In this document: positions 29,298-35,778 of the stretch, in pieces
Layout: every line of letters begins with the position of its first letter
Position numbering within the stretch: the stretch's first letter is position 1
Origin: Rhodocyclaceae bacterium
Lineage (GTDB): Bacteria > Pseudomonadota > Gammaproteobacteria > Burkholderiales > Usitatibacteraceae
Length of the DNA stretch: 35,778 nucleotides
NCBI GenBank assembly: GCA_020247545.1
Contig: JADCIX010000065.1
Coordinates: 1 to 35,778 of the forward strand
Reading direction: 5' to 3'
Program-made: the position numbers and the translations under genes
Notes under the pieces: generated by a model
Told to the model about the DNA's origin: nothing
Seen by the model: the letters and a program-made list of their open reading frames with translations, nothing else
The model's database searches: none

Positions 29298-30482
29298 TTA
29301 GACCATTTTGGTCAGCAACAAACCTTTCAAGTATTCGCCTTCCGGAAAGTGAATTGACACCGGATGATCGGTACCTGCCGACAGGCGACGCGTGATCTGC
29401 GCGTCAACGCCGGCATCCAGTGCCGCCCCGGCGACGATCTTCTGAAAGAGATCGACCGATACGCCGCCTGAGCAGGAATAGGTCATCAGCATACCCCCCG
29501 GCCGTAGTAACTTGAAGCCGAGCAAGTTGATGTCCTTGTAGGCTCGCGACGCTTTTTCGACATGATGTGTGGTCGGCGCGAGTTTGGGCGGATCGAGGAT
29601 GATGAGGTCGAAGGATCGCCCCTGATCCCGTAACTTTCGCAGGTGGGCGAATACGTCCGCCTCAACCCACTCCATCGTGTTTGGGTCGATGTTGTTGAGC
29701 GCAGCAATATGTCGTCCGGACACCAACGCTGGTGCCGAGGAGTCGATCGATATGACCGTTTTTGCGCCCCCCAACATTGCTGCCGTACTCATGGTTGCCG
29801 AGTAACAAAAACAATTCAGCACATCCCTGCCTTTGGCGAGAGAGCATGTGATTGCACGATTGTCGCGCTGGTCAAGGTAGAAACCGGTTTTATGACCGTT
29901 GACGATATCAACCTCAATGGTCATCCCGCCTTCCACGATTTGAATCGCGCCGGTCAGCGGTTCACCGAGTACCAGACCGTTGCGCTGCTCGAGTCCTTCC
30001 AGTTTACGTACGTCTGCGTCCGAGCGTTCGTATACGGTGCGCGCGCCGGTCGCCTCAATCAGCAAGTTGGCCAATAACAGTCGCTGCGATTCGATGCCGG
30101 CGGTTGATAGCTGTAACACGGCCACATCGCCGTAGAGGTCTGCAACGACGCCCGGCAAACCGTCGGATTCACCGTGTATCAGGCGATACGCATTGGACTG
30201 GGCCGGCAAGTGCGACCGTCGTGAGATCGCTGCGGCGATGCGCTGCCGGTAGAACGACTCGTCGATTACAACTTTCTCGTCGAAACTCAATACCCGCGCC
30301 GCAATCTGGGAGGGGGCTGAAAAGGCTGCCGTCGCGAGGTATCTCCCGTCTTCCGCAACAATTTTGACGATGTCGCCGGAGTCAGCCGCATCGATGTTTT
30401 TGATTGCCCCCGAAAACACCCAAGGATGACGGCGCAGTAGCGACTTGTCGCGGCCCGATTTGATAACGATTTTTTTCATCAT
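29298..30482 (-). CDS. rlmI: RlmI-like 23S rRNA (cytosine-C5)-methyltransferase with PUA domain
   Basis: This 394-residue protein has an N-terminal PUA domain ([20 protein letters not shown]), a central region [21 protein letters not shown], and a Rossmann methyltransferase domain. That domain carries [34 protein letters not shown] (motif I), [10 protein letters not shown] (motif IV) and [10 protein letters not shown]. coli RlmI methylates C1962 of 23S rRNA. Motif I is slightly unusual, as most homologues read LNLFSYTGGFS, but the fold is kept. Two tandem ATGs (30482, 30479) leave one residue of doubt at the start. It is divergent from trmB. Confidence 0.92.
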
Positions 30483-30541
30483 GGCATTGTACCGAGTCGG
30501 TATCGCGCCGTGAGTTGGCCGCTCTGTGGGAAAATTGGCAG

Positions 30542-31288
30542 ATGATTAAAACTCAAACGCTGCCTGCCGACGCTGTCCTACACACCCCGGCAAACACCCC
30601 GTCGAAAAACGAGCCCACCAATCGGCCCCACCAGCCTATTCGGAGTTACGTCCTCCGGCAGGGACGGCTGTCTCCCGCGCAGGCGCGTGCCATTGATGAG
30701 GGCCAGTCATTGGTGATTCCTCATGCCTCGGGTTTGCTGGATATTGATGGCGTGTTTGGTCGTCACGCGCCAACCGCTGTTGAAATCGGCTTCGGCATGG
30801 GCCACGCGACCGCCGATATCGCGGCACTACGGACCGACGAGAACTTCATCGGTATCGAGGTTCACACACCGGGCGTCGGCTCCCTCCTTAAGATGCTCGC
30901 CGAGCGCCAGCTCACCAACGTCCGCGTCATTCAGCACGATGCGGTGGAAGTCATGACCAGCATGATTGCCGATGGGAGTCTTGCCGGGGTGCATGTTTTT
31001 TTCCCGGATCCCTGGCCGAAAAAGCGCCATCATAAACGCCGTCTGATTCAGCCTGCTTTTGCCAAGCTGCTCGCGCAGAAACTACAACCGGGTGGTTACA
31101 TCCACTGCGCGACCGATTGGCAGGAGTACGCTGAACACATGCTGGACGTATTGAATCAGGAGTCGTTGTTAGTCAATACGGCAACAGGTTTTGCGACGCG
31201 TCCTGCGTATCGAACCGAGTCTAATTTCGAACGACGCGGCCTGAAGTTGGGGCATGGTGTGTGGGATGTGGTGTTTCGCCGGGCCTGA
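30542..31288 (+). CDS. trmB: tRNA (guanine-N7-)-methyltransferase
   Basis: This 248-residue enzyme makes m7G46 in tRNA. It shows [15 protein letters not shown], the SAM motif [30 protein letters not shown], the signature [19 protein letters not shown] and a C-terminal [20 protein letters not shown]. The ATG at 30542 is preferred over a TTG at 30515; GGGAAAA lies upstream as a weak ribosome site. The N-terminal 35 residues before the conserved region are a low-complexity extension. It is a housekeeping gene, divergent from rlmI. Confidence 0.96.
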
Positions 31289-31384
31289 ACCGAATAACAC
31301 CATCACGCCCGCAGGATAACTGCACCCAGCGCGAAGCGGCAAGGCTGCAGCGCGGGCGGGTAAACTAACAGGGGAGGGATATAT

Positions 31385-32080
31385 ATGAGAAATGCACTTC
31401 GTCGTCGCTGGCTCAAATCTGCCGCAGCCCTCGGGCTACTCGGGCCTGCCGGCATTTCTGGGTTGATTCAGGAAGCGTTAGCCAAAGGTGATCTGCCCGT
31501 CACGCCGGGTATCCAGTCGCTGACTGGCGCGGTCACCGTCAATGGCCAACCGGCAAAAGTCGGTACACCGGTCAAGGTGGGAGATCGTGTGGTGACGGGG
31601 GCGAAGAGTTCTGCGGTCGTCGTGGTGGGTAAGGACGCTTATCTGCTGCGTGACAATTCAACTATTGTGCTCGAAGAATCCAAAGCATTACCCGGCTTGT
31701 TAGGCGAAGTGGCGGTGTTGACGGGCAGGGTGCTCTCGGTGCTGGAGAAACGGCTGCGCGACCAGAGGGTTCAGTACCGGGTGCCAAATGCAACCATCGG
31801 CATTCGCGGCACCGGCTTTTATGTCGAGCTCTATCCTGAACGGACTTACTTTTGCCTGTGTTACGGCGAGGCTGCAATTGACGGCAAAGGCATGAGTGAG
31901 CCGAAGCTTGTTAAATCGACACACCACGAATCGCCGCTGTGGCTGGATGATCGCGGCGGCAGCATGAAAGTCGAAGCAGGCCCATTCATGAATCACACTG
32001 ACGACGAACTCATCATGCTGGAGAAGCTTACCGGTCGTGAGCCACCGTTTGTGGCGATGGGGCTGACGGGTAAGTATTGA
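31385..32080 (+). CDS. FecR-domain exported protein
   Basis: This 231-residue protein has an N-terminal Tat-like signal (RRRWLKSAAALGLLG) and a FecR-type beta domain: VNGQPAKVGTPVKVGDRVVTG, SAVVVVGKDAYLLRDNS and VPNATIGIRGTGFYVEL. The domain ends in a Cys-bearing YFCLCYGEAAIDG. Proteins of this kind are periplasmic; in FecR proper the domain takes part in sigma-factor signalling, but no sigma factor or TonB receptor is nearby and the single-domain form has no known role. GGGGAGGG precedes the ATG. The cassette array begins 39 bp beyond its stop. Confidence 0.8.
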   Translation: MRNALRRRWLKSAAALGLLGPAGISGLIQEALAKGDLPVTPGIQSLTGAVTVNGQPAKVGTPVKVGDRVVTGAKSSAVVVVGKDAYLLRDNSTIVLEESKALPGLLGEVAVLTGRVLSVLEKRLRDQRVQYRVPNATIGIRGTGFYVELYPERTYFCLCYGEAAIDGKGMSEPKLVKSTHHESPLWLDDRGGSMKVEAGPFMNHTDDELIMLEKLTGREPPFVAMGLTGKY

Positions 32081-32119
32081 TTCAAAAGTGCCGGTGCGGG
32101 CTTGGCTAAAGAGTGATAG

Positions 32120-32237
32120 CCCTAACAATTTGGCTCTGAGCCTTTGGCTTTCTTTGGCTTCCTTTGGCTTCTTAAAGGCGGAGCTTTTTTGCGGCGTTCA
32201 GCTACCGAAGAGGGCGACTTTGACTGCCGAGTTAGAT
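32120..32237 (-). repeat. attC-like site ending the cassette array (118 bp)
   Basis: Read on the minus strand, it starts ATCTAAC (matches RYYYAAC) just after the stop of the four-helix membrane protein gene and ends ATTGTTAGGG (GTTRRR core). The inner part carries three 10-bp tandem units and only partial complementarity between the halves. Position, orientation and core ends fit the attC of the last cassette; the stem is weaker than in the neighbours. Confidence 0.6.
32141..32170 (+). repeat. Tandem 10-bp repeat (three units of YCTTTGGCTT)
   Basis: CCTTTGGCTT, TCTTTGGCTT and CCTTTGGCTT follow one another without a gap, differing only in the first base. A degenerate fourth unit (AATTTGGCTC) lies upstream. 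They lie within the attC-like site closing the cassette array, in its variable central region. Such short arrays can vary in copy number by slippage. Confidence 0.8.
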
Positions 32238-32238
32238 C

Positions 32239-32625
32239 TCATTTGACAAGCTGTAAAGCCACGTTTGCTGCAACCCATAGGCCAGCGAAGACAAAGGCAA
32301 TGCGTACAAAAAGCATGCCTACGCTGCGCGCGCGGACGAATAGGTGAAAGTACCTTGGATCGCAAAGCGTCGTAATTTTGATGACGGCGAAGAGGAGGAA
32401 CGCAAGACCAAGCAACGTAAAGCCCGCGCTCGGTAGTGCGAACAGCGCCAACAGGAGCGAGGAACTTTGTAGGCTTAGCGCCAAGGAAGCAGGCGTCTGA
32501 ACGATAACCTGCATCGTCATTGAACCGAACTGCAGGCCGAGAAAGATGCATATGGCAGACGCAACTGAGGAAAGGAACATGCGCTCCCAGAGCATGGTTG
32601 GTGTGTCAGGAAAAGGTGATCTCAT
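32239..32625 (-). CDS. Four-helix membrane protein of unknown function (cassette gene)
   Basis: This protein of about 128 residues starts MRSPFPDTPTMLWERMF. It has about four hydrophobic segments: SVASAICIFLGLQFG, SLLLALFALPSAGFTLLG, LAFLLFAVIKITTL and MLFVRIAFVFAGLWVAANVA. I do not recognise a family. It lies alone between two attC-like sites (stop two bases from the downstream site, start about 66 bp after the upstream GTTAGGC), exactly as an integron cassette gene would. The start is uncertain; an in-frame codon at 32673 would add 16 residues rich in charged residues. Membrane proteins without known function are common in cassettes. Confidence 0.6.
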   Translation of the reverse strand: MRSPFPDTPTMLWERMFLSSVASAICIFLGLQFGSMTMQVIVQTPASLALSLQSSSLLLALFALPSAGFTLLGLAFLLFAVIKITTLCDPRYFHLFVRARSVGMLFVRIAFVFAGLWVAANVALQLVK

Positions 32626-32690
32626 CCAGAAGCAATCTGGCTCTTCGGTTCTGCGCGCAGCGAAACGTCGCAAAGGATTGGCATGATTAG

Positions 32691-32754
32691 GCCTAACGTC
32701 GGAGCTAAGTGGCGCGACGTTTTGTGGTGCGTCCGGTTGAGCGACGAGTTAGGG
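32691..32754 (-). repeat. attC-like site overlapping the end of brnA (64 bp)
   Basis: On the minus strand it starts CCCTAAC, inside the last codons of brnA, and ends CGTTAGGC. The two halves pair imperfectly: TAACTCGTCGCTCAACCGG aligns with the complement of the other end, TAACGTCGGAGCTAAGTGG. These are the R''/L'' and L'/R' parts of an integron cassette recombination site. The site supplies the codons for the antitoxin's C-terminal tail. Confidence 0.7.
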
Positions 32755-32980
32755 CTTGGGCGTCAACGTACGCGTCTATCAGACGACGGATCATTCGCTG
32801 ATATTGCGTTTGATGTTTTATCGCTTCGGACTTGAAAAAATCGATGCTCTTCTTGCTGAGAGCCAAGGTGACCTTCACGCCCTCCTCTCGAAACGCCAAC
32901 TCTTCAGGCGATGGAAGGAAATCCGGGAGCACCTGAATCCGACCCAGGGGCTCATTCGTGTAGTTTGTTTTCACGCTCAT
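32705..32980 (-). CDS. brnA: BrnA-type antitoxin
   Basis: This 91-residue protein is predicted to neutralise BrnT and repress the operon. It begins MSVKTNYTNEPLGRIQVLPD. The ribbon-helix-helix part is VKVTLALSKKSIDFFKSEAI followed by HQTQYQRMIRRLIDAYVDAQ, the usual BrnA/CopG-like ending. A basic tail of about 17 residues (LTRRSTGRTTKRRAT) follows, encoded by the attC-like site, so it was probably acquired by cassette formation. The ATG at 32980 lies 29 bp inside the toxin gene, so the pair is translated in a coupled way, toxin first, as in known brnTA operons. The pair sits in an integron cassette, where toxin-antitoxins are thought to stabilise the array. Confidence 0.8.
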   Translation of the reverse strand: MSVKTNYTNEPLGRIQVLPDFLPSPEELAFREEGVKVTLALSKKSIDFFKSEAIKHQTQYQRMIRRLIDAYVDAQALTRRSTGRTTKRRAT

Positions 32981-33242
32981 ACGCAGCCTTTCCTTTGCGC
33001 CAATAGCCAGCGCCAATTATTCGAATAACCGAAGCACGATACGTAAACCGCACCGTGAGGATCCCGCCATCAACTTCGCCGAAACAATAAAACCGATCTT
33101 CGGTTTGGCTGTGGGAAACATCCTTGGCAATCACGCGCCTTGGGTCAGCGAATGCATATTGGGCGCGCCCAAAGGAAACGCGGTGCTTCAGCTGGTTTTC
33201 AGCATCCTTTTCCGGATCCCAATCGAAGCGCGTACTTGCCAT
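32952..33242 (-). CDS. brnT: BrnT-type ribonuclease toxin
   Basis: This 96-residue protein belongs to the BrnT family, RelE-fold ribonuclease toxins that stop translation. Family features are FDWDPEKDAENQLKHRVSFG, the YAFADPRRVIAKD segment, DRFYCFGEVDGGILTVRFTY and the C-terminal VIRIIGAGYWRKGKAAYERE (related to IRIISARxAxxxERxxYE). The region normally reading ISAR is IGAG here, so the usual arginine is missing and activity may differ. The ATG at 33242 is chosen over an in-frame TTG at 33248. It starts about 55 bp after a GTTAG junction that ends the 114-bp repeated element. brnA overlaps its 3' end. Confidence 0.85.
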   Translation of the reverse strand: MASTRFDWDPEKDAENQLKHRVSFGRAQYAFADPRRVIAKDVSHSQTEDRFYCFGEVDGGILTVRFTYRASVIRIIGAGYWRKGKAAYERENKLHE

Positions 33243-33295
33243 CCGCAAAGCTTATCACTTGGCAATATAAAACGCCATATTTTTGTATGGGCGCT

Positions 33296-33409
33296 CTAAC
33301 TCAATGTAAAGACGCAAAATGCCGCTTATCGCGGCAGTCGATCTCCCAATCATGTTGTAGATAACTGACTAAGTACCCATTCTAGTCAATCGCTTCTCGC
33401 TCAACCTTC
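33296..33409 (-). repeat. 114-bp repeated element, copy 1 (upstream of brnT)
   Basis: About 92% identical (105 of 114 positions by eye) to 35241-35354 in the same orientation. On the minus strand it ends CATTGAGTTAG and is followed directly by the brnT cassette, so the end has the GTTAG crossover core. Inside are a perfect hairpin (TGCCGC-TTATC-GCGGCA) and a possible promoter toward the cassette: TTGACT (33384-33389) and AGTTAT (33361-33366), 17 bp apart. It may be an attI-like site, a long attC or a promoter element. Confidence 0.75.
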
Positions 33410-33508
33410 ACTTATCGTCCCCACTGGCGGAAACGCCGAAAGCAACTCACTTCACATGTGTAGGCACGAACAAAGCAGACGCTTTGCACAAACTGAAACG
33501 CGTTGACT

Positions 33509-33548
33509 GACGGACATTTCAAGGCATAAATGCTTGAAACTACCCGTC
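33509..33548. repeat. REP-like palindromic element in the cassette region
   Basis: GACGGACATTTCAAG and CTTGAAACTACCCGTC are imperfect complements around a small inner stem (GCAT/ATGC). The outer GACGG/CCGTC and the TTTCAAG segment resemble the element at 21322-21361. The surrounding 255 bp between the GNAT gene and repeat copy 1 show no convincing gene. Confidence 0.45.
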
Positions 33549-33664
33549 CTTGCGTGTGTTTATCTCATCGGGCCGTAGTAGACGCGGGTATCGTATTCAA
33601 GCGTGACAACTCCGCGCACTTGATGTGCGTCGAATACTTCGCGGACACACGCGATTCACGCTGC

Positions 33665-34174
33665 CTACAGCGCCAACGACATAACGACGCTCGTATAGTT
33701 TGTGTCGGGCCGCCAGTCGCATGCCCCGACAACCTTGTAGCCCCAAGCTTCGTACATTGCGATGAGCGCGTGAGCAGGCGCTGCGGTGTCGAGTGCCATG
33801 GTCTTGCCGCCGTTGCGCAAAGCATGGGAAAGCGCAGCCTCGTGCAGTGCCTTGCCTAGGCGAAGACCCTTGAAGGCAGGCGCAACAGCGAACTGACATA
33901 TGGTCCACGTCGTTGGATCACGGTATAGCGCTACTTCCGAAGCCGACTGCGGTGGACGAACTGTAATGGTGCCCAAATATGCGCCATTGGATTCTGCGAC
34001 AAGGCCATGACCGGATGCAAAGCGTGCTGCGGTGTCTTTGACGCTTTGGTGTGTGCCCCAGTAGCGCAAGCCTTTTGCGGCGTGCGGCGCATAGGCGGCA
34101 TGGATGAGTTCGGTGAGCAATTCCATGTTGTCACCGAGCGTGAGATCACGAATGACGGGTACGAGGTGCGGCAT
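33665..34174 (-). CDS. GNAT-family acetyltransferase (cassette gene)
   Basis: This 169-residue protein starts MPHLVPVIRDLTLGDNMELL. It shows a GNAT acetyl-CoA loop in QFAVAPAFKGLRLGKALHEAAL and a C-terminal MYEAWGYKVVGACDW. The loop is GLRLGKAL rather than the usual RGxGxGxxL. The substrate is unknown; the early AHAAKGLRYWGTHQSVKDTAARF segment is typical of acetyltransferases acting on small molecules or proteins. The start lies only a few bases from the end of an attC-like site (34183), as expected for a cassette gene. Acetyltransferases are among the commonest cassette products, some giving antibiotic resistance; none is implied here. Confidence 0.85.
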   Translation of the reverse strand: MPHLVPVIRDLTLGDNMELLTELIHAAYAPHAAKGLRYWGTHQSVKDTAARFASGHGLVAESNGAYLGTITVRPPQSASEVALYRDPTTWTICQFAVAPAFKGLRLGKALHEAALSHALRNGGKTMALDTAAPAHALIAMYEAWGYKVVGACDWRPDTNYTSVVMSLAL

Positions 34175-34182
34175 ATTTGTGG

Positions 34183-34255
34183 GTCTTTACGTTTGACCTG
34201 AGGGGCGGGCAAAAGGTGCAGCCTTTTGGGCATCCCCTCGATGGAAGGGGTAGGC
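34183..34255 (-). repeat. attC-like site, degenerate, between the two cassette GNAT genes
   Basis: On the minus strand it starts GCCTACC (one base from RYYYAAC) just after the upstream gene's stop and ends CAAACGTAAAGAC. It parallels the CAAACGTTAGGC end of the neighbouring site. GAGGGG/CCCCTC and CAAAAGG/CCTTTTG stems fold it into a hairpin. The crossover core GTAAAGA departs from GTTRRRY, so the site may be inactive. Confidence 0.55.
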
Positions 34256-34256
34256 G

Positions 34257-34655
34257 TCACGGCCCAACCTTGGCAGTGCGTTCCATGGCTACCTCAGAAA
34301 CTTTGAAGCCAAGTTTCTCATAGAAACCGAAGATGCCCGGCCTTGCTGCGCGAAGAACCCATGTAACGCGCTCGTCTGAGCCCATAACAGCTTGGACCAG
34401 GGCTCTTCCTATACCCGTGCCACGAAGTGCCTCTTCGACGACGACCATTGAGATGTACCCGTTGGTCATTCCATCCGTGAGCGCGCGGATGAAGCCAACA
34501 ACCCGACCTTCCTCTACGGCAACAAGCGCCGACTGGGAGCGAGAGACAAGCCTTGCGAACTCTTCGGCATTTGAGACCTTGCGATCCCATCCGGCGGAAA
34601 GCAGCAGATGTCTTGCGACTTCGATCTCTTCTGACAGGATTGTGCGGATTTCCAT
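34257..34655 (-). CDS. GNAT-family acetyltransferase (cassette gene)
   Basis: This 132-residue protein starts [20 protein letters not shown]. It has the N-terminal helix, a central strand [20 protein letters not shown], the acetyl-CoA loop [20 protein letters not shown] with the classic RGxGIG, and a C-terminal [17 protein letters not shown]. The ATG at 34655 is preferred: it lies 11 bases after the GTTAGGC crossover of the attC site, giving the minimal leader TTAGGCGTCAC usual for cassettes. A longer in-frame start (34685) would read through the recombination site. The length and layout resemble many single-domain GNATs; the substrate is unknown. Confidence 0.88.
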
Positions 34656-34660
34656 GTGAC

Positions 34661-34741
34661 GCCTAACGTTTGAGGTAAGGGGCAACGCCGCTAGGCGTTG
34701 TCCAGTGAACGAAGTGAACGGCCTTGACCGAATTGTTAGCC
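34661..34741 (-). repeat. attC site (81 bp), the clearest in the array
   Basis: On the minus strand it begins GGCTAACAATTCGGTCAAGGC and ends GCCCCTTACCTCAAACGTTAGGC when its two halves are read in turn; their complements match with the usual unpaired bases. The GGCTAAC core contains the TAA stop of the GIY-YIG gene, and GTTAGGC is followed after 5 bases by the next gene's ATG. The central stem AACGCC-TAGC-GGCGTT is perfect. This is the standard layout of an integron cassette recombination site. Confidence 0.85.
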
Positions 34742-35224
34742 GCCATTCGCTCTGCCAATGGTGAGACTGTATTTTGGGGCGTTCTTTTTGTTATTGAACT
34801 CCGGCAAAGTGCCGTGTCTTTTTACGAATTCCGCAAAGCAGTCATATTCAAATTTGGCGACCTCGCCCATAACGATTAGGTCTTTGGGTTGGTTTGATTT
34901 TACGTCGCAAGGAAATGATGCTACGGAGATAAAAAGAGCGTTAACAAGTTGTTGGTAGTTTTGATATTTGTATCGAACTCGGTCGGCACCACCATGCCCA
35001 GTTTTTCCGACTATCGTGTTGTCAAATTGCTTTAGTCGAGCCCGCAGGCCGCCAGCAGAGTTTGTCATTCCGATATAGATGATTTGTTTCACCCACTCAA
35101 AAACGCTGGATGGGTTGAATTGGTCGTTGGCAAGAGCACAGACGTAGATTCCAGGGTGTTCCATACCGCAGAGAGAGTTTCTCTCTGACCACGTTGCCCA
35201 TTGTGTAAATTTGCTCTCGTACAC
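34736..35224 (-). CDS. GIY-YIG-domain protein (cassette gene)
   Basis: This 162-residue protein has the GIY-YIG nuclease core: PGIYVCAL (GIY at 25-27), [20 protein letters not shown] (YIG at 50-52, with the conserved arginine nearby) and a downstream Glu in [12 protein letters not shown]. The two halves are about 23 residues apart, longer than the usual 10-15, which points to a divergent member. The start is a GTG at 35224 preceded by AGGAG. An upstream GTTAG junction of the 114-bp element lies 17 bp away, and its stop codon TAA is part of the following attC site. As a cassette gene it could be a defence nuclease or a remnant homing enzyme. The target is unknown. Confidence 0.75.
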
Positions 35225-35240
35225 GGGTGCTCCTAGGCGA

Positions 35241-35354
35241 CTAACTCAATGTAGAGACGCGAAATGCCGCTTATCGCGGCAGTCGGTTTCCCAATCATGT
35301 TGTAGATAACTGACTAAGCACCCATTCTAGTCAATCGCTTATCGTTCAGCCTGC
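35241..35354 (-). repeat. 114-bp repeated element, copy 2 (upstream of the GIY-YIG cassette)
   Basis: This matches copy 1 (33296-33409) at about 105 of 114 positions, in the same orientation. It is again followed, on the minus strand, by GTTAG and a cassette gene. The internal hairpin and the putative TTGACT/AGTTAT promoter are unchanged. This copy is the first array feature next to the IS110-like element, where an integron integrase would be expected but is missing. Confidence 0.75.
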
Positions 35355-35466
35355 TTCTGCACCAACAGAATCGCCAAACCCAGCAAACGCCAATTGTGCG
35401 GGCATGGAAAAACGCGACGATCATCAAAAGGGGAACTTCTAAAAACCTCAAAATTGCCGTCATTTC

Positions 35467-35541
35467 AGCGCAGGCTGGAATCCAGTCCACAGCAAGATCA
35501 ATGAGTTACGAAGGTCTGGGTCCGAGCCTGCGCTGGGACGA
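35467..35541. repeat. GC-rich inverted repeat element with CTGGGACGAC end
   Basis: The segment opens AGCGCAGGCTGGAATCCAG and closes CTGGGTCCGAGCC then TGCGCTGGGACGAC. The 10-bp outer arms are exact complements and CTGGAATCCAG is itself a short palindrome. It is a dispersed type of intergenic repeat, related to the one at 25618-25716. Confidence 0.5.
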
Positions 35542-35592
35542 CGGAGTTTTTATTGACCCGGCAACTAAACATGAATAACTAAGAAAACCCCG

Positions 35593-35615
35593 CTCCCGCG
35601 CAGGCGGGAGCCTAA
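35593..35615 (+). terminator. Possible intrinsic terminator
   Basis: CTCCCGC (35593-35599), loop GCAG, and GCGGGAG (35604-35610) form a perfect 7-bp stem followed by CCTAATTTT. The GCGGGAG-type stem is also typical of dispersed repeats, so terminator activity is uncertain. Confidence 0.35.
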
Positions 35616-35639
35616 TTTTGCGTGGCAAGCGCGCGGTGA

Positions 35640-35778
35640 AATTAATGAAATGGACGCCCCCTACCTGCAACGGCATCGAAGTGCCAAAGTGGAAGTGTCA
35701 TCAACCACCAAAAGTAGGAGGAGGCGTCATGAAAGAGATTAAGGTAATTGGACTGGATTTGGCAAAGAATGTATTTCA
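35640..35778 (+). mobile_element. Left end of an IS110-family insertion sequence (runs off the window)
   Basis: The transposase fragment starting at 35729 is preceded by a GC-rich non-coding stretch starting about TGGACGCCCCCTACC (35650). In the IS110 group the non-coding left end encodes a structured bridge RNA that guides insertion. The exact left boundary and group (IS110 or IS1111) cannot be fixed from this window; the start given is approximate. Confidence 0.5.
35729..35778 (+). CDS. IS110-family transposase, N-terminal fragment (runs off the window)
   Basis: Sixteen full codons read MKEIKVIGLDLAKNVF. The start matches IS110/IS1111 transposases, whose DEDD RuvC-like domain opens with GLDLAKNVFQ or GIDVAK; the first catalytic aspartate is in LDLAK. 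A strong AGGAGGAGG lies six bases before the ATG, supporting the start. The rest of the protein, including the C-terminal transposase domain with its serine, is outside the window. Confidence 0.8.
   Translation, partial: MKEIKVIGLDLAKNVF

Follow-up and report, generated by a model that had tools for sequence, protein, structure and literature searches.

Near the right-hand end of a 35,778-bp contig (C62, analysed whole and called the window here) of a Rhodocyclaceae bacterium genome (G000; 3.54 Mb in 95 contigs) lies an apparent array of integron gene cassettes with no integrase gene beside it. The array holds six open reading frames (ORFs) in five units, all on the minus strand, in agreement with a preliminary description of the stretch that had counted five consecutive minus-strand gene units. 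The locus is also carried by two congeneric relatives: Betaproteobacteria bacterium UKL13-2 (G003; CP012157.1, complete) and the metagenome-assembled genome G008 (JADCJC010000031.1, Rhodocyclaceae bacterium isolate M18BS1SP2A13MG).

Cassette recombination sites (attC) were sought with a covariance model, R1, built from 18 hand-picked and aligned attC candidates of integron arrays in other genomes. To avoid circularity, none of these came from G000; 17 came from other genera and one from contig C84 of G008. The model comprises the R''/R' and L''/L' helices with one extrahelical base, and 91.0% of its alignment cells are paired, whereas shifting the partners by 1-3 columns leaves 19.3-44.1%. It was run over the whole window on both strands with filters off, up to E 5. 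Integrase genes (intI) were called at the TIGR02249 cut-off of 265 bits. The labels argS, methyltransferase and transposase, used below for chromosomal genes, are our own reading of translations and have no database basis. The features of the locus are listed here, with the integration site (attI) beside intI on another G000 contig, C44, as reference.

32120..32237, minus strand: possible decayed attC at the array end, with core-like heptamers by eye
32239..32673, minus strand: ORF of a cassette, resembling a membrane protein by eye; without a match in Pfam, NCBIfam or PADLOC
32691..32755, minus strand: attC of the BrnTA cassette; R1 36.5 bits, E 1.3e-7
32705..33016, minus strand: BrnA-like antitoxin adjoining BrnT; BrnA_antitoxin 15.1 bits, below the cut-off of 26.1
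32952..33248, minus strand: BrnT toxin; PF04365 78 bits, cut-off 34.5
33296..33407, unstranded: attI-like copy c2, 93% identical to c1; 42-bp core 37/42 to the C44 attI
33484..33643, unstranded: fragment resembling the 3' end of a chromosomal methyltransferase gene (name by eye); 75% to G008, 82% to UKL13-2
33665..34174, minus strand: GNAT2 acetyltransferase; PF00583 52.6 bits, cut-off 20.7
34183..34255, minus strand: weak attC of the GNAT1 cassette; R1 18.2 bits, E 0.0072
34257..34655, minus strand: GNAT1 acetyltransferase; PF13508 51.6 bits, cut-off 27
34661..34741, minus strand: attC of the GIY-YIG-like cassette; R1 34.4 bits, E 4.6e-7
34736..35224, minus strand: GIY-YIG-like protein (label by eye); no Pfam or NCBIfam match
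35241..35352, unstranded: attI-like copy c1 at the array head; 42-bp core 39/42 to the C44 attI
35639..35778, plus strand: first part of an IS110-like element that the contig end truncates; the same 140 bp occur elsewhere in G000

R1 returned nine matches in the window. The best three all lie on the minus strand within 2.1 kb, two at E below 1e-6 and the third at E 0.0072, and the other six reach at most 10.1 bits. Four attC-like sites had been proposed for this array, and at least three covariance-model hits in one orientation had been named as support for it. R1 found three: the sites at 32691 and 34661 are strongly backed and that at 34183 weakly, the latter having an 18.8-bit counterpart at the equivalent place of a related cassette on contig C31. 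The site at 32120 was not recovered, R1 yielding only an overlapping match of 8.8 bits at 32183-32282 (E 1.9). Gene boundaries fall as the preliminary description had stated, with starts near crossover points (the distance is 6 bp between GNAT1 and the 34661 core and 9 bp between GNAT2 and 34183) and the stops of the BrnA-like and GIY-YIG-like ORFs inside attC. One junction has a feature that it had not seen: R1 finds no attC between GNAT2 and BrnT, where c2 and the methyltransferase-like fragment lie instead. Rfam at gathering thresholds and a tRNA search gave no match in the window.

Evidence that these units are cassettes also comes from a second copy of GNAT1 on C31, with 93% protein identity and attC matches on both sides (18.8 and 42.3 bits). 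The window (from 32000) and the C31 locus share a single similar stretch, 34189-34739, identical at 501 of 558 positions (90%) and running from core to core. Judged by sequence, GNAT1 is true cassette cargo, an ORF plus attC unit present in two G000 arrays. Scoring of 150 out of 1622 candidates across G000 gave at least 27 R1 matches at E 0.1, spread over ten contigs. The window contributes two of these, and the 18-bit site at 34183 is not one of them. Groups of seven, five, three and two attC matches lie close to the ends of contigs C47, C64, C31 and C71, respectively, which suggests that the cassette arrays of G000 were probably fragmented by assembly.

The copies c2 and c1 are 112-bp repeats that bracket three cassettes (GNAT2, GNAT1 and the GIY-YIG-like gene). 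In the rest of G000, a search at E 0.001 finds nothing more of them than the first 41-45 bp, on C44 and C90. The C44 copy of this core has a full-length intI on one side and the first cassette ORF on the other, the place expected of attI. The c1 core likewise heads the window array, with no intI beside it. What the preliminary description had seen as repeats to the right of the array is part of this attI-like site, which it had not recognised. The core pattern occurs at five places in the GTDB collection, all in UKL13-2 and G008, although records near G000 may be excluded there. No sigma-70-like promoter directed towards the cassettes (Pc) was found in c1 or c2, a simple scan giving one site in 32000-35700 where 2.2 are expected. 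An inverted repeat, TGCCGC...GCGGCA, stands next to the attI core at 35265-35281 and is largely kept in nine copies from five loci; in c2, TTTT comes after it, and it was rated terminator-like in the direction of BrnTA.

No integrase gene accompanies these sites. Searches with the IntI proteins of C44 and C18 find nothing at E 5 in window positions 30000-35778, and against the fetched stretches of G008 (L056) and UKL13-2 (L057) they give single chance-level matches (E 0.65 and 4.5). Beyond its attI, the G008 locus is 96% identical to the window up to position 35643 and continues to argS; it lacks IS110, and no intI precedes the next chromosomal gene. The gene that follows in UKL13-2 is a methyltransferase gene (label by eye), again with no intI there. 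The preliminary description had supposed that the integrase was lost or lies beyond the insertion; the G008 and UKL13-2 loci suggest instead that its absence at this locus is the better reading. Full-length intI genes do occur elsewhere in G000, on C44 (457.7 bits) and C18 (445.7 bits), each beside its own cassettes. The layout of a complete integron, with intI next to attI, is thus found on C44 and C18 and not in the window. Within the genus, intI exceeds the cut-off in six of 13 genomes, and in three of these six (G008, G010 and G011) it contains stop codons. One such gene (L061:9433-10494, on G008 contig C84) belongs to the integron that corresponds to the one on C44 and has the same downstream neighbour.

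Comparison with the relatives shows how the array has changed. The G008 array consists of the membrane-protein-like ORF, BrnTA and a single attI; the fetched G008 locus shows no match to GNAT2, GNAT1 or the GIY-YIG-like gene. Of the eight repeat positions at which c1 and c2 differ, the G008 attI agrees with c2 at the two closest to the core and with c1 at the remaining six. It thus holds one switch from c2 to c1, between repeat positions 21 and 46 and not at the core; the interval contains the TGCCGC...GCGGCA inverted repeat. Outside the repeat, the left side of G008 follows c2 (48 of 49 aligned differing positions) and the right side follows c1 at all but one. From the aligned sequences, the G008 junction is what one crossover between c2 and c1 would give, either by loss in G008 or, reversed, by gain in G000. 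As the switch lies away from the core and the IntI crossover point, it speaks for homologous recombination.

The cassettes themselves are closely similar between genomes. At the DNA level, identity between G000 and G008 is 97-99% for the membrane-protein-like ORF (98.0%), the attC, BrnA and BrnT; between G000 and UKL13-2 it is about 97-98% for BrnA and BrnT. The three genes left of the array are only 81-93% identical in either comparison, indicating that cassettes or blocks were exchanged more recently than the adjoining chromosome diverged. The membrane-protein-like ORF is absent from the fetched UKL13-2 locus, where two attI-like copies likewise occur and enclose a different ORF (162 aa). 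A single conserved block with fixed spacers was considered and rejected: the neighbours of BrnTA differ in UKL13-2, where a GNAT2 fragment follows in place of the membrane-protein-like ORF of G000 and G008. A transposase-like gene lies between brnA and brnT in UKL13-2 (L057:6857-8398).

Taken together, the locus is best described from its sequence as a cluster of attC sites lacking an integrase (CALIN) of a chromosomal integron, laid out as attI, cassettes and attI. The preliminary description had also called it a CALIN, a name borne out by the three attC matches in one orientation and by homology limited to one cassette. Overall, the explanation that we favour, and consider fairly probable, is an integrase-less chromosomal array that kept its attI twice, may be served in trans and would change by crossover between the repeats. 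Its anatomy and cassette-limited homology suggest that, as generally in integrons, attI x attC recombination brought the cassettes in at the attI side. Later changes would need no integrase in cis. The two full-length IntI whose genes lie on C44 and C18 could act in trans to move single cassettes, and the three-cassette block would be lost or gained as a unit through homologous crossover between the 112-bp repeats. According to the available part of one study, a functional IntI can mobilise CALINs in trans (PMC12444791). In the available part of another, attI1 lies on both sides of a cassette fragment, and IntI1 excises it at more than 97% when the sites are identical (PMC12901181). If that efficiency held here, the survival of the block between c2 and c1 would suggest that the integrases seldom act on it.

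Several observations weigh against this explanation. Over the 188 bp that follow the core, neither copy shows convincing similarity to C44 (z 3.8 for c1 and -0.2 for c2, 100 shuffles), and a profile of attI-intI flanks (six sequences) and five flanks of the window locus gave no match in either direction. In view of these flanks, decay of intI at this very spot is not demonstrated. By eye, c1 and c2 each carry one mismatch to the GTTRRRY core, which C44 fits. UKL13-2 keeps four attI-like sites with no intI over the cut-off, so retention of the core alone is no proof of use. In addition, the c2 side of the G008 hybrid comprises only two positions inside the repeat, and the inserted block does not end like a clean cassette insertion, since the attC expected after GNAT2 is missing.

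The strongest alternative is that the locus never had an intI and that an array ending in a 42-bp attI piece was brought here from an integron such as that of C44. The end of similarity to the C44 attI after 41-45 bp, with flanks unrelated at the levels tested, fits this proposal, and attI pieces carried by cassettes are known from mobile integrons (PMC12901181, available part). However, one weak stretch of the c1 flank, with 28 of 40 positions matching, aligns to the 5' region of the C44 intI on almost the same diagonal, and the flank on C90 shows a clear relationship to its C44 counterpart (z 16.9), indicating that decay in place does occur in G000. Loss of intI at the locus is favoured over such an arrival, which we regard as possible, though the less probable course.

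The C90 site has a close partner in UKL13-2, each being a further attI-like core without intI (L060:8811-8856 in C90 and L058:9547-9592 in UKL13-2). The two cores agree at 41 of 42 positions and their common flank gives z 114.9; it is related to the C44 flank with z about 17-19. On C90, cassettes with attC follow the core. The contigs C44 (L024:9013-9258) and C90 (L060:10441-10824) share the coding sequence at their ends, which suggests that one cassette is present in both arrays.

A broader proposal is that of a distributed integron, in which integrases at one or two loci would act in trans on several arrays headed by attI, with the conserved 42-bp core as a shared address and an attI-bounded block of several cassettes moving as a composite unit. 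This we hold to be rather doubtful.

It is unlikely that a complete integron was split by IS110, with its integrase now beyond the contig end. The contig does end inside the IS110-like element, and the far side lies outside the sequence. Nevertheless, the corresponding G008 stretch runs on without either an insertion or an integrase gene, and the two G000 intI over the cut-off sit next to their own cassettes on C44 and C18. An integrase cut off by IS110 insertion was set aside on the G008 locus. The 140 bp of the IS110-like element in the window recur at, or within five bases of, an end of contigs C77, C92 and C24. Dispersed palindromic repeats occupy 35450-35617, and parts of 35353-35778 match 47 other places in G000, IS110-like copies included. 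The segment from argS to the methyltransferase gene is found on G000 contig C7, inverted relative to G008, and the start of C7 resembles the end of a transposase gene by eye; C7 also matches the methyltransferase-like fragment at 33484-33643 (83% over 121 bp).

Finally, chance core-like motifs in an ordinary gene block are extremely improbable: the failure to recover 32120, the weakness of 34183 and a simple core-and-helix scan that did not separate the window from random sequence are in their favour, but they are already contradicted by the two R1 matches below 1e-6 and by homology to the C31 array that ends at the cassette boundary. That home-made scanner (cores plus one helix) could not tell the window from 20 order-1 Markov random sequences and was replaced by the covariance model.

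Regarding the cargo, BrnT and both GNATs exceed their Pfam cut-offs, and the BrnA-like protein stays below its own. The GIY-YIG-like protein has one match in a sequence search of the PDB (E 0.31), and PADLOC gave weak matches only. No NCBIfam model reaches its cut-off for any of the six array proteins, in keeping with the claim that no known resistance gene is present; GNAT1 shows sub-threshold similarity to several acetyltransferase models, including aminoglycoside ones (27.1 bits against a cut-off of 300). Among 300 genomes drawn from the order, own genome included, GNAT1 relatives occur in eight (E 1e-25) and the GIY-YIG-like gene in two (E 1e-10). Five of nine homologue loci of these genes (own window copies excluded) have at least one attC match at E 0.1 (L143, L145, L146, L149 and L152) and L147, L148, L150 and L151 have none. 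In G156, from another family, a 63% identical GIY-YIG-like homologue lies between attC matches of 18.7 and 35.7 bits. Long arrays of very similar attC beside intI occur in the same family as G000 (L102, L103 and L104, in G015, G017 and G019), with 11, 19 and 20 candidates by our own criteria over about 12 kb each.

CALINs, intI loss and attI-flanked cassettes are already published. The locus resembles a CALIN in its three attC matches of one orientation and in the absence of intI from the locus in two relatives; unlike one, it keeps an attI-like site, in two copies, inside the array and at its head. With the attI-flanked or delta-attI-type cassettes of mobile integrons (PMC12901181, as far as available) it shares an attI-type site on both sides of the cargo, as in the attI1-aacA4 fragment-attI1 arrangement, but its block comprises three cassettes rather than one, is chromosomal, has no intI in cis and carries another kind of attI. 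The chromosomal integrons of Xanthomonas, in the available part of PMC12444791, likewise form an array at a fixed place with intI inactive or missing in parts of the genus, whereas G000 has full-length intI at other loci and a doubled attI. Within G000, the integrons of C44 and C18 also have cassettes with attC, and C44 has nearly the same attI core; they differ from the window locus in possessing a full-length intI. In a literature search of incomplete coverage, over titles and abstracts, no chromosomal case with a doubled attI or an attI without intI like this was found, and the text of the UKL13-2 genome paper (PMC5248499) does not mention integron, integrase, cassette or attC.

Integrase-less arrays are well known, but it is difficult to judge of such an array whether it is dead or is still served by an integrase at another place. 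In the present case, an attI-cassettes-attI layout described for mobile integrons appears in a chromosome. An attI-like site is kept and doubled, full-length integrases with a nearly identical attI core lie in G000, and there are relatives with and without the three-cassette block. The combination of a kept attI, integrases in the same genome and a with/without pair would make the question of a dead or a served array testable at one locus.

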